From Acidimicrobiales bacterium (GTDB lineage Bacteria; Actinomycetota; Acidimicrobiia; Acidimicrobiales; MedAcidi-G1): a DNA stretch of 55,115 bases. Shown in pieces: positions 18,281 to 43,541 of the stretch. Position numbers and translations under genes: made by a program. Under the pieces are notes generated by a model that saw only the letters and a list, made by a program, of their open reading frames with translations, was not told the DNA's origin and made no database searches. The stretch is from positions 1 to 55,115 of the forward strand of contig JAKURV010000014.1 of NCBI GenBank assembly GCA_022452035.1, given 5' to 3'. The stretch's first letter is position 1, and the number at the start of each line of letters is the position of its first letter.

Positions 18281-18381
18281 ACCAGTGGAGGGATCTACCT
18301 GAGGTGTCTATGATCCGGTCCTCATTTGTACACATGGTCGGGAGCGGGATTCCTGCGGCCCGGTCGGAGGGGAAACCTGAC

Positions 18382-20241
18382 ATGAAGCGTTTGACAAGGG
18401 TGTTGGCGCTGACGCTGACGCTGACGATGGTTGCTGCTGGTTGTGGCAGCGACGACGACGATGCTGCCCCGGCTGCTCCGGCGACAACGGCTGCTCCTGC
18501 GACAACGGCTGCTCCTGCGACAACGGCTGCTCCTGCGACGACAGCAGCTCCGGCAACAACTGCTGCTCCGGAGCCGGAGGAGGTTTCGAGTGGTGCTGGT
18601 GAGGGCGGTACTGTGACGCTCCTTTACTGGCAGGCCGCATCCACCCTCAACCCGTATCTTTCGGGTGGTTGGAAGGACCGGGACGCTGGTTCGGTCATCC
18701 TCGAGCCGTTGGCCGAGTTTGACGACCAGGGCGTCCTCGTTCCTGCGCTTGCCACCGAGATCCCGACGGTTGCCAACGGCGGAGTCGCCGAAGACCTGAA
18801 GTCGATCACCTGGCAGCTCCTTGAGGGTGTTCTGTGGTCCGACGGAACGCCGCTCACCTCCGACGACGTGGTGTTCAGCTGGGAGTACTGCTCTCACCCG
18901 GACACCGGATGTGCCAATGCGGGTTCCTATGAAGGCGTGACCTCGGTGGAGGCTGTCGACGATCTCACCATCACGGTGAACTTCGCTGAGGCGACACCGT
19001 TCCCGTACGTCCCCTTCGTGTCGAACTCGTTGCCGGTCATCCAGCGGGCTCAGTTCGGTAACTGTGTGGGCGCGGCTTCGGCCGAGTGCACCGACCAGAA
19101 CTTTGCTCCGATCGGCACCGGTCCGTTCAAGATCGAGTCGTTCACCACGAACGACACCGCGGTATACGTGATCAACGAGAACTACCGCGGTGTTCCCGAG
19201 GGCGAGCCCTACTTCGGCAGGGTTGTCATCAAGGGCGGTGGCGACGCCCCGGCGACGGCCCGTTCGGTGCTGGAGCTCGGCGAGTCCGACTATGCCTGGA
19301 ACCTTCAGGTCGAGCCGGAGATCCTCGCTGCCATGGTTGCCGCTGGAAAGGGCACGGTCGTGTCGGCCTTCTCGACCATGGTCGAACGGATCATGGTGAA
19401 CCAGACCAACCCGGATCCGGCACTCGGCGACGATCGCAGCGAGTACATGGACGGTGGCAACCCGCACCCGTTCCTGACCGACCCGGTGGTAGGTCGTGCG
19501 CTGTCGATCGCCATCGACCGCCAGACCCTGGTTGATGTCGGCTACGGCGACGCCGGTCGTCCCACGTGCAACGTGTGGCCCGCTCCGCCAGCCCAGAACT
19601 CCACGGCCAACGACGAGTGCCTCACCCAGGACATCGACCTGGCCAACCAGTTGCTGGACGACGCCGGCTACGCCGACACTGATGGAGACGGCGTGCGCGA
19701 GTCGCCCGATGGGGTGCCGCTCAAGATCCTCTACCAGACGTCCACCAACACGGTGCGGCAGGCCACCCAGGAGCTGATCAAGCAGGACTGGGCCAAGATC
19801 GGTGTGGAGACCGAGCTTCGTAACATCGATGCCTCGGTGTTCTTCGGTGGTGACCCGGCCAGCCCGGACACCTACGGCAAGTTCTACGCCGACATCGAGA
19901 TGTACACGAACGGCGCGGCCGGCGTGGACTCACAGTCCTACATGGGGAGTTGGACAACCCCGAATATCAGCGGTAAGGACACCAACTGGCAGGGGAGCAA
20001 CGTCCAGCGCTTCCAGAGCGACGAATACGACGCACTGCACGCGGAGCTAACCCAGACCGCGGACATGGACCGTCGTAACGAAATCACGATTCAGCTCAAC
20101 GACCTGGTCGTGGGTAACTACTCGATCATCCCGCTGATCCACCGGGGCAGCGTCTCGGCGCATGCCAACTCGCTGACCGGGGTCAAGCTCAACCCGTGGG
20201 ATGCAGAGTTGTGGAACATCGGGGAGTGGGCACGTAACTAG
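18382..20241 (+). CDS. dppA: Peptide ABC transporter substrate-binding lipoprotein (family 5)
   Basis: Extracellular binding protein of the Dpp importer, 619 residues. ATG 18382 has GGAGGGG upstream and gives a lipoprotein signal: MKR, a hydrophobic stretch rich in Leu-Thr, and lipobox VAAGC with Cys21. A Ala/Pro/Thr linker of five APATTA-type units follows, then the family 5 fold from about residue 75 (VTLLYWQAASTLNPYL; LTSDDVVFSWEYC; GTGPFKIESF; TNTVRQATQELIKQDWAKIG). GC is visibly lower than in neighbours, as expected of a highly expressed gene. A strong hairpin follows it, before dppB. Confidence 0.95.
   Translation: MKRLTRVLALTLTLTMVAAGCGSDDDDAAPAAPATTAAPATTAAPATTAAPATTAAPATTAAPEPEEVSSGAGEGGTVTLLYWQAASTLNPYLSGGWKDRDAGSVILEPLAEFDDQGVLVPALATEIPTVANGGVAEDLKSITWQLLEGVLWSDGTPLTSDDVVFSWEYCSHPDTGCANAGSYEGVTSVEAVDDLTITVNFAEATPFPYVPFVSNSLPVIQRAQFGNCVGAASAECTDQNFAPIGTGPFKIESFTTNDTAVYVINENYRGVPEGEPYFGRVVIKGGGDAPATARSVLELGESDYAWNLQVEPEILAAMVAAGKGTVVSAFSTMVERIMVNQTNPDPALGDDRSEYMDGGNPHPFLTDPVVGRALSIAIDRQTLVDVGYGDAGRPTCNVWPAPPAQNSTANDECLTQDIDLANQLLDDAGYADTDGDGVRESPDGVPLKILYQTSTNTVRQATQELIKQDWAKIGVETELRNIDASVFFGGDPASPDTYGKFYADIEMYTNGAAGVDSQSYMGSWTTPNISGKDTNWQGSNVQRFQSDEYDALHAELTQTADMDRRNEITIQLNDLVVGNYSIIPLIHRGSVSAHANSLTGVKLNPWDAELWNIGEWARN
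18472..18561 (+). repeat. Five tandem 18-bp repeats encoding the lipoprotein linker
   Basis: Five consecutive 18-base units (first GCTGCTCCGGCGACAACG) each encode Ala-Ala-Pro-Ala-Thr-Thr. Copies two and three are identical; the fourth and fifth differ at third positions. They form the flexible spacer between the lipid anchor and the binding domain. In-frame copy-number change would only alter linker length. Confidence 0.9.
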
Positions 20242-41264: not shown

Positions 41265-42047
41265 GTGGGTTCGCCGGGCGTCCACGGTGACCGGTTCGGG
41301 TCGGCGGCCGACGACTACGCGCGGCATCGGGCCGACTTCCCGGCGGCTGGTATCGACCGGATGGTGGCCCTAGGCGTTGGTACGCCGGGTCAGCGACTAC
41401 TCGATCTGGGCTGCGGGACCGGTACCCTCGCCCGCCAGTTCGCGGCCCGGGGGTGCACCGTCATCGGTGCCGACGTGGATACCCGGATGCTCGCGGCTGC
41501 CCGCTCGCTGGCCGCTGCCGCCGGCCTGCAGGTGGCGTGGCGGGAGTGCTCTGCCGAGGACACCGGCCTCCCGTCGGCGTCGTTCGACGTGGTCACCGCT
41601 GCACAGTGCTGGCACTGGTTCGATGGCGAGGCGGCGGCAGGAGAGGTCCGGCGCCTGCTCGTTTCCGGTGGTCTGGTGGCCGTGTGCGGGTTCGACTGGC
41701 TGCCGCTGCCCGACACGGTGTCGGGGGTAACCGAGGCGCTCATCCAGGCCCACAACCCGTCCTGGAACCTGGGTGGCATACGGGACCCGGGCCCGGAGGC
41801 CCGTCGCCACCTGTCTGGTGCCGGCTTCGTGGTGGTCGAGACGTTCACCTTCGACGTGGACGTTCCCTATTCCGTGGATTCCTGGCGACTGCGGATTCGA
41901 GCCAGTGCGGCGATCCTCGACCTGAACACCGCTGGGGCGGCGGCGTTCGAGGCCGAGTTGGCCGGGGTTATGGCTGACCGGTTCCCAGGCGACTCCCTGA
42001 TGGCCCCCCACCGGGTGTGGGCCTCAGTGGCCGTAGCGCCGTCCTGA
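41265..42047 (+). CDS. Class I SAM methyltransferase
   Basis: 260 residues from GTG 41265, five bases after dtd. It begins with DRFGSAADDYARHRADFPAA, then motif I LLDLGCGTGTLARQFAARG, acidic GADVDTRML, and ASFDVVTAAQCWHWFD. The WHWF stretch is common in ubiquinone/biotin-type and other small-molecule methyltransferases. Its last 24 bases overlap the end of the convergent lnt-like gene. Substrate unknown. Confidence 0.88.
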   Translation: MGSPGVHGDRFGSAADDYARHRADFPAAGIDRMVALGVGTPGQRLLDLGCGTGTLARQFAARGCTVIGADVDTRMLAAARSLAAAAGLQVAWRECSAEDTGLPSASFDVVTAAQCWHWFDGEAAAGEVRRLLVSGGLVAVCGFDWLPLPDTVSGVTEALIQAHNPSWNLGGIRDPGPEARRHLSGAGFVVVETFTFDVDVPYSVDSWRLRIRASAAILDLNTAGAAAFEAELAGVMADRFPGDSLMAPHRVWASVAVAPS

Positions 42048-43541
42048 CCAGGGAGACCCGACCCAGCAGGCGACCCATGCCACTAGAGCGAGGACGACCA
42101 TCGGTCGGGACCCACTCCGGCTGGCCCACGTGAGGCCCCGGCGCATCTCCACCCGGTGGTGGAGCACGGCCTGCTCGCTCACGGCAGTGCGTTTCAGAAC
42201 TCGGCCCCCTTCGTCGACCACAGCGCTGAAGCCGGTCGGCGCTACCTGGAGCACCCAGCGACCCGTTTCCAGGGCTCGGAGGCGGCTGGAGGCCACCTGC
42301 TGGGTTTGGACCTGGGTCAGCCAGTAGCTGGCCCCGTTCGTCGGGTTGAGGATGACCTCCGCCCCGTGGAGGACCGCGTCCCGTGACCGGTGATCGAAGA
42401 AAACCTCCCAGGAGATAGTCACGCCGAGGGTCCCCACCGATGTCTCCAGGATCGCCGGCTCGGTTCCGGGGCGCAGGTCGCGGGCCGGGAGCATGTCGGC
42501 GGCCACCCGCTCCACCAGACCCCGGAGGGGCACGAACTCACCAAACGGGACTATCCGGACCTTGTCGTACCGGTCGGCAACCATGCCGTCAGGCTCGATG
42601 GCCGTCTGGTAGTTGAGGTTGACCGTTGGGTCGTCGTTGGCTCGGTGGAACCACCCGGGCACCAGCACGGCATCCAGACGAGCCGCCTCGGCGGCCAGCA
42701 CGGCGGAGGCGTCATCAGCGTATAGGTGGTCCTGGCGGCGCCACTCGCCGGTGGCCGGCAGCGGAACCGGGTTGACCACGTTCTCCGGCCATACCACCAG
42801 GTCGACAGGAGCCTCCACCAACTGGTTGGCCGCCACCTGGTTCGCGAACACCTGCGCCGCTCCGGTGGGCGTGGCCCGGGTGCGCTGGGGCCCTCCGCCT
42901 TGCACGAGGGCCACGTCCAGGGTGCCGACCGTCGTGCCGGTCGGTGCCACGGCGGTCAGAACGGCGGCGGCCGCCAACAGTCCGGCCACCACGGCGATTG
43001 TGGTCGCCGAGGCCCCGTCGGCCCTCCGCCCGTCAGCCAGGGCTGACAGTCCGACGCCAATGGCCACGGTGAGGGCCACCAGCAGGAGGGGTCCAGCCAC
43101 CCGGACCACGGGGGCCAGGGGTCCGCCGGCCTGCCCCATAGCGATGGTGGCCAGAGGAACCCCGCCGAACGGCACGGTCCACCGGACAAGCTCAGCCAGG
43201 GTCACCGTGCCGACCAGACCCAGGCGTCGCCATCGACCGGACGGTACGAGAGCGGTGGCCAGGCCCAGCCACAGCCCGTGGAGCAGGGAGGCGATGGCCC
43301 AGCCGGGTGGCGTCAGGTCGACCATCCAGAACATGGAGGGAAGAGCCCAGGCCAGGCCGGCCACCAGGCCCCGGCCGAAGCGACGGCCCGCCGGCCGGTC
43401 GGCCAGCGACCGGTCGAGGAGGGCAATCCCACAGTAAGCGGCCGGCCACCAACCCCACGGCGGGACCGACGAGGCAATCAGTAGCCCGGCTAGCGGGGCG
43501 GAGGCCGAGGAACGCAGACGGGGGTGGATCGCCAGGGACAT
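42024..43541 (-). CDS. lnt: Apolipoprotein N-acyltransferase homologue with Ser in place of the catalytic Cys
   Basis: 505 residues: an N-terminal membrane half (about six helices, residues 15-200) and a nitrilase-like outer domain. The triad Glu and Lys are present: Glu253 in VVWPENVV and Lys327 in RYDKVRIVPFGEF. The Cys, in ICYE-type motifs of known Lnt, is Ser377 in TISWEVFF (codon TCC). Known Lnt needs the Cys to carry the acyl group, so this protein may be inactive as Lnt or use Ser. ATG 43541 is preferred to the upstream in-frame start. Confidence 0.85.
   Translation of the reverse strand: MSLAIHPRLRSSASAPLAGLLIASSVPPWGWWPAAYCGIALLDRSLADRPAGRRFGRGLVAGLAWALPSMFWMVDLTPPGWAIASLLHGLWLGLATALVPSGRWRRLGLVGTVTLAELVRWTVPFGGVPLATIAMGQAGGPLAPVVRVAGPLLLVALTVAIGVGLSALADGRRADGASATTIAVVAGLLAAAAVLTAVAPTGTTVGTLDVALVQGGGPQRTRATPTGAAQVFANQVAANQLVEAPVDLVVWPENVVNPVPLPATGEWRRQDHLYADDASAVLAAEAARLDAVLVPGWFHRANDDPTVNLNYQTAIEPDGMVADRYDKVRIVPFGEFVPLRGLVERVAADMLPARDLRPGTEPAILETSVGTLGVTISWEVFFDHRSRDAVLHGAEVILNPTNGASYWLTQVQTQQVASSRLRALETGRWVLQVAPTGFSAVVDEGGRVLKRTAVSEQAVLHHRVEMRRGLTWASRSGSRPMVVLALVAWVACWVGSPWSGRRYGH

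Follow-up and report, generated by a model that had tools for sequence, protein, structure and literature searches.

The window, by which we mean the whole stretch of 55,115 nucleotides analysed here, contains a gene resembling apolipoprotein N-acyltransferase (Lnt) in which a serine codon stands where the catalytic cysteine is expected. The question raised by this locus is whether such a protein works as an acyltransferase, and on which acceptor. The accepted Lnt chemistry passes through a thioester, and the Cys-to-Ser mutant of the E. coli enzyme serves as an inactive control (PMC6828757; here and below, published work is cited for the passages drawn on, not for entire papers). The gene and the residues discussed are located as follows:

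42024-43541, minus strand: coding sequence of the Ser-type Lnt-family protein, 505 aa, ATG start, without internal stop
42783-42785, minus strand: Glu253, codon GAG, general base of the triad, equivalent to E. coli Glu267
42561-42563, minus strand: Lys327, codon AAG, triad residue, equivalent to E. coli Lys335
42537-42539, minus strand: Glu335, equivalent to E. coli Glu343
42411-42413, minus strand: Ser377, codon TCC, aligned with E. coli Cys387; same TCC codon in the relatives L010 and L014
42405-42407, minus strand: Glu379, equivalent to E. coli Glu389
42333-42335, minus strand: Gly403, equivalent to E. coli Asp413
42297-42299, minus strand: Gln415, equivalent to E. coli His425

The window protein is a member of the Lnt family (TIGR00546) by score, domain order and whole-length fold. 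It reaches 178.8 bits with the NCBIfam lnt equivalog TIGR00546 (cut-off 132.9), and the Pfam domain LNT_N (52.1 bits, cut-off 27.1) is followed by CN_hydrolase (86.2 bits, cut-off 23.2). An AlphaFold model built from 28 sequences (pLDDT 82.8, pTM 0.86) matches 20 Lnt entries with Z between 34.3 and 36.2 across 457-480 residues; for E. coli Lnt, VIA-align gives Z 36.2 and an rmsd of 2.9 over 463 residues, and identity in the structural alignments is 20-22%. The other nitrilase-fold proteins listed give Z 24.3 and below. Among them, the soluble amidases of the nitrilase superfamily have a Glu-Lys-Cys triad and share the fold of the C-terminal domain of the window protein, but they match just residues 202-497 or so, lack the membrane domain, and use a cysteine nucleophile (PMC5500888). 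The active-site loops of the model (330-340, 379-382 and 405-407) have a pLDDT below 50, therefore no geometry or distances are claimed from it.

In the multiple alignment Ser377 stands opposite Cys387 of wild-type E. coli Lnt (triad E267-K335-C387), and in pairwise alignments with the chains of the C387S mutant (5vrh, 8b0m) it falls on their serine. The catalytic Glu and Lys of the Glu-Lys-Cys triad are both there, as read directly from the codons of Glu253 and Lys327; the catalytic Cys is missing, so the protein was filed as a Ser variant and not as an ordinary Lnt. The first-pass annotation had proposed precisely this, an Lnt homologue with Glu and Lys in place and the catalytic Cys replaced by Ser, and was right on each point, though it named no strand. 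Its further statement that the other motifs look intact holds in part. Besides the triad, the residues reported as essential in E. coli Lnt include W237, E343, Y388 and E389 (PMC3850990), and Glu343 is the fourth residue of a proposed tetrad (review PMC8048626). The window protein keeps E343 and E389, but Tyr388, Asp413 and His425 are replaced by Trp, Gly and Gln, and Trp237 by Ala, at a place where the alignment is unstable (E. coli is gapped there in another alignment). Cys-type sequences themselves have Phe (82/106) or Trp (6/106) at the Tyr388 position, and Trp at the Trp237 position in just 8/106.

An artefact, i.e. a sequencing or assembly error or a gene in decay, might be suspected in a draft genome of 65 contigs such as the one the window comes from. 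The relatives L010 (95% identity) and L014 (93%) nevertheless carry the same TCC codon, and Ser is found at this site in 137 sequences, written with all six Ser codons. The window gene is under purifying selection: by the Nei-Gojobori method dS is 0.117 and dN 0.025 against L010 (ratio about 0.21), and dS is 0.254 and dN 0.038 against L014 (ratio about 0.15), well below 1. The Ser form is also the only Lnt match (E 1e-15) in four single-contig genomes (G002, G027, G110 and G022). We consequently reject sequencing error and pseudogene on the evidence of relatives, codons and dN/dS, and give an artefact a negligible chance; the view of the first-pass annotation that the gene is no obvious pseudogene agrees with its open frame, its dN/dS and the shared TCC codon.

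The distribution of Ser and Cys forms was then examined in genomes searched with the family model, which has no bias toward Ser. At a threshold of E 1e-15, 130 of the 148 genomes sampled in the class have an Lnt match. In the window's order, Ser is found in each of the 26 genomes that bear an Lnt, the window's own among them; these represent 10 families and 22 genera. Among the other 104 Lnt-bearing class genomes, 65 have only Ser (9 family codes), 39 only Cys (18 family codes) and none both. Eight of these 9 Ser family codes gave only Ser in the sequences read. In the remaining one, f22, seven sequences have Cys and only the genome G028 has Ser; G028 carries the motif type of the order, perhaps through misplacement or transfer. 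A phylum sample of 149 genomes drawn in the same way yielded 79 matching genomes from outside the class: 67 with Cys only, 10 with Ser only (all eight of f38, one of f68 and one of f75), one mixed (G216) and one unreadable (G167, in pieces). The 35 relatives found on contigs all have Ser as well, but they were recovered with a peptide containing the Ser itself and were not used for frequency; the same Ser in relatives, which the first-pass annotation had proposed to look for, is thus found both in this biased set and in the unbiased 26/26, and the refuting outcomes it had named, an error or no Ser in close relatives, both fail. In total 259 Lnt sequences were aligned, E. coli included: 137 with Ser, 119 with Cys and 3 pieces that end short of the site. 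These are not all independent, as they include the 35 Ser-biased contigs, some perhaps from the same organisms as sampled genomes. No Ala, Gly, Thr or any residue other than Ser and Cys occurs at the site in the 256 readable sequences.

The Ser form is alone in the genomes of the class that have it. The first-pass annotation had asked for a second, Cys-containing lnt: the window's genome (96.1% complete) has none over the family cut-off, the next matches to the lnt model scoring 39.9 and 33.7 bits against 132.9, and the Ser-type gene is one of six CN_hydrolase matches in all. Likewise, 91 of 91 Ser-bearing class genomes have no Cys-type match at E 1e-15; one of these 91, G026, has two adjacent Ser copies. 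The two upstream enzymes of the pathway are widespread: Lgt was found in 143/148 and LspA in 141/148 class genomes, and the window's genome has one match to each. Within the 91 Ser-bearing genomes the counts are 88 for Lgt (not found in G008, G145 and G094) and 84 for LspA (not found in G122, G033, G073, G120, G124, G132 and G143). The Ser-bearing genomes without a match to one of them are multi-contig drafts. In the window's order, however, 11 of 37 genomes lack an Lnt match, and all 11 keep Lgt and LspA. The order can thus do without the step, and presence of the pathway alone is no proof of N-acylation.

The window also encodes a lipoprotein, which the first-pass annotation had called dppA:

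18304-20241, plus strand: SBP_bac_5 substrate-binding lipoprotein, 220.8 bits, lipobox MKRLTRVLALTLTLTMVAAGC, Cys codon at 18442-18444

The lipoprotein is real, as judged from the SBP_bac_5 match and the lipobox, but the name is not kept, since the dppA score is 51.1 bits against a cut-off of 1005. It probably enters the Lgt-LspA pathway as a substrate. A lipobox census over 455,115 bases (the window and 20 stretches of 20 kb) is to be taken as tuned and weak, because its rule was altered between versions, and nothing is based on it here except the lipobox of the window's lipoprotein: the first rule gave 1 Cys match and no excess over other residues; a later one 2 Cys matches, or 2.2 per 1% residue frequency (highest other residue 1.4); and the last one 4 Cys matches, or 4.5 per 1% (highest other 2.1).

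The Ser substitution itself is already in print, in two settings. The E. coli C387S mutant has, like the window protein, one replacement at the nucleophile, and it forms an oxygen-ester acyl-enzyme (PMC6828757). In the passages of PMC5500888 and PMC6828757 drawn on here it is without N-acyl transfer, the oxygen ester being regarded as too stable to allow the second step; PMC10313180 describes it, in the part drawn on, as low in activity and not inactive. This mutant serine, however, sits in a pocket shaped for Cys, whereas Ser377 is natural and fixed and its pocket differs at several positions. The other setting is Mycobacterium bovis BCG, where BCG_2279c (Rv2262c/Rv2261c) is a second Lnt homologue with a natural Ser at the C387 site, actinobacterial like the window protein (PMC3850990). 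According to the results of that paper used here, deletion of the Cys Lnt ended N-acylation of four lipoproteins, BCG_2279c did not replace it, and the authors favoured a contributive role for BCG_2279c. Unlike the class of the window, where the Ser form stands alone (0/91 genomes mixed), BCG_2279c is found beside a proven Cys Lnt. In the sole mixed genome of our samples, G216, the Ser copy falls into a clade apart, where it is the one Ser sequence beside five with Cys. In the open-licence papers searched, no lineage with the Ser form as its sole Lnt was found.

Conservation among the Ser sequences was analysed by column. Of the 505 columns, 19 have one residue in at least 98.5% of the Ser sequences (columns filled at 90% or more). 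These comprise Glu253, Lys327 and Glu335 (136/136 each), and Ser377 and Glu379 (137/137 each); the Cys sequences are conserved at these positions too, apart from a single deviation at each of Lys327, Glu335 and Glu379. Such invariance is what one would expect of an enzyme and not of a lipid-binding remnant. The Ser codon is TCN in 128 sequences and AGY in 9. Passage between these two sets needs two base changes, via Thr or Cys; the presence of Ser in both therefore argues that it is being kept or regained.

The pocket around the nucleophile differs between the two forms. Asn or Asp occupies position 403 in 106/118 Cys sequences readable there and in none of the 137 Ser sequences, and position 415 is His in 99/119 Cys sequences compared to 8/137 Ser sequences, all eight from f38. 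At position 380, Ser or Thr is present in 82% of the Cys representatives and 4% of the Ser ones, E. coli Lnt having Ile. In the E. coli enzyme, as described in PMC5500888, Ser411 lies within hydrogen-bonding distance of Cys387, His425 is an active-site His, and the backbone amide at the equivalent of position 380 is part of the oxyanion hole. Asp413, the E. coli residue at position 403, is two residues past Ser411. Two f26 sequences have Cys in a Ser-type pocket (Glu403, Phe415), and the one included in the trees, L056, is placed among Ser sequences; Cys and Ser look exchangeable there. Thr403 is also present in the Cys relatives of the G216 paralogue, so the pocket change at that place need not follow Ser. 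The association of positions 403 and 415 with Ser rests on 3 independent starred contrasts, too few for a formal test. We read the pocket changes as a possible retuning that accompanies Ser, which would look the same as ordinary lineage drift.

Two trees were used to ask how often Ser arose. The quick tree, built on 128 representatives (60% identity cut) with column 377 masked, cannot be explained with fewer than five Ser/Cys changes; its starred branches by themselves require three or more. It contains a group of 46 Ser sequences (the order, class families and f68/f75) with two Cys sequences, L056 inside and the long-branched L222 (f61) at the base; support is 93 and the branch is not starred. 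The f38 Ser clade is separate and starred, and the Ser paralogue of G216 (f60) groups with five Cys sequences. The careful tree, on 58 of the 128 sequences chosen by random seed with E. coli and the long sequences L104 and L222 left out, places the four sequences of the order, query included, apart from the other Ser families and beside Cys sequences. A single origin of all Ser sequences is rejected (p-AU 5e-54). One clade uniting the order, the other main Ser sequences and f26 is not rejected (p 0.306), and on these trees, whose root is not fixed, the f26 Cys may be a reversal or an old state (p 0.209); the groups behind both of these values were defined after a tree had been seen. The Ser change is old and fixed, and these trees put the number of Cys/Ser exchanges in the phylum at three or more.

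What such a protein does can be proposed as follows. Glu253 would take the proton from Ser377, which would attack the ester of a membrane phospholipid, with the oxyanion held in place by Lys327 together with the elbow's backbone amides. The lyso-phospholipid would leave and an oxygen-ester acyl-enzyme would remain, as known in the E. coli mutant. A second substrate would then take the acyl chain, the likeliest being the diacylglyceryl-cysteine made by Lgt and LspA, through its free amino group, with the changes at 403 (no Asn or Asp) and 415 (mostly no His) as the putative retuning. By analogy, the first step is supported by the C387S work; for the second step we infer, against that same mutant work, a transfer suggested by conservation, sole-copy status and the changed pocket. 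We thus favour, with a probability of about 0.55, a functional Lnt-family acyltransferase of the membrane that uses Ser in place of Cys as its nucleophile. That the protein is catalytically active through Ser377 appears rather more probable, and for an N-acylated lipoprotein as the product we see the chances as evenly balanced.

The published behaviour of Ser variants counts against Ser-based N-acylation, since BCG_2279c does not replace the Cys Lnt and C387S shows little or no transfer, and two other readings draw on it. In one, the protein would be an active Ser enzyme with another acceptor, i.e. water (in a phospholipase-like reaction), a glycan, or a lipid or protein hydroxyl, and would not N-acylate lipoproteins. 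This would extend to the window protein what is seen in E. coli C387S, where acylation of the enzyme succeeds and onward transfer does not (PMC6828757 and PMC5500888, in the passages drawn on). Some positions near the substrate in E. coli are indeed lost, such as Trp148, which is Leu here, but Trp148 is kept in 69/131 Ser sequences. Nor do the neighbours speak for lipoproteins: the order has a common neighbourhood of hemE, protoporphyrinogen oxidase, lnt and GT4, and 35/35 contig relatives have matches to the window's hemE, protoporphyrinogen oxidase or GT4 glycosyltransferase near lnt. Other Ser families, however, have inositol monophosphatase, amidohydrolase and aminotransferase near lnt in 5-6 of the loci examined, and the neighbours at five Cys loci examined are Thy1, YegS-like and GNAT, so that the neighbourhoods compared indicate no common acceptor or function. 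With Lgt and LspA in nearly all genomes as well, we hold another acceptor to be unlikely, at a level that still deserves attention.

In the other reading the protein would be an inactive partner or pseudoenzyme that binds lipid or lipoprotein without catalysis, like the role favoured for BCG_2279c. The mycobacterial Ser paralogue that could not stand in for the Cys Lnt (PMC3850990) and the inactivity of E. coli C387S in transfer (PMC6828757, PMC5500888), as the cited passages have them, are in line with it. Against it, all 91 Ser-bearing genomes of the class lack a Cys-type match; drift would be expected in a dead site, while Glu253, Lys327 and the fourth residue, Glu335, show no change in 136/136 readable Ser sequences and Ala, Gly and Thr are absent from the site. 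We consider it improbable, and more so than a change of acceptor. Of the three readings listed by the first-pass annotation (use of Ser, another function, an inactive partner), the use of Ser is therefore favoured and the inactive partner weakened. For the favoured use of Ser, the fullest form of the proposal is a natural Glu-Lys-Ser N-acyltransferase of the nitrilase superfamily, acting via an oxygen ester, with a pocket evolved for the amine, being the sole Lnt of the order's Lnt-bearing members and of many families, and derived from Cys more than once; this composite we advance tentatively, at a little under even odds.

An order that has retained Ser as its only form, while its remaining catalytic residues stayed the same, constitutes a natural experiment on Lnt chemistry. 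An automatic "lnt" annotation is no proof of triacyl lipoproteins. Either Lnt has turned to another acyl transfer, which would leave the last step of lipoprotein acylation in question for these bacteria, or oxygen-ester N-acylation works with few changes of the pocket, which would name the residues to test.

The lnt gene of the window lies in a gene order that is common, wholly or partly, to 35 contig relatives:

37595-47800, minus strand: patatin-like protein, hemE, protoporphyrinogen oxidase, cyclase-domain protein, lnt, unknown frame, GT4 glycosyltransferase, methyltransferase, unknown

Several of these 35 relatives gave no match to the cyclase-domain frame or to the unknown ones.

In genome G272, the Cys-type homologue L242 has a Glu aligned at the catalytic Lys position; in the draft genome G066, the Lnt match L073 (G066:C49:40553-41698) is broken by a single in-frame TGA. 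One row (L109, G026:C7:17772-20449) is a tandem pair of neighbouring Ser-type Lnt genes, the copies of which differ in motif, ISFEG in one and LSYEA in the other. L110 (genome G028, coded family f22) is Ser-type with the motif ISWEVFF as in the window's order, whereas the remaining 7 read rows of f22 are all Cys; misplacement, contamination or transfer could each explain its position.

Two rows of family f26, L056 (G062) and L061 (G038), carry the Cys and yet retain Glu403 and Phe415 of the Ser type. L056 is placed amid Ser genes in trees, and the f26 Cys is possibly a reversion from Ser to Cys.

A family-model search (E 1e-15) returned no Lnt match in 11 of the 37 genomes of the window's order (G014, G134, G047, G055, G063, G067, G099, G102, G126, G130 and G141), all from families f3 and f5. 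Matches to Lgt and LspA, which act before Lnt in the lipoprotein pathway, were present in all 11. Lnt seems to have been lost inside the window's order.
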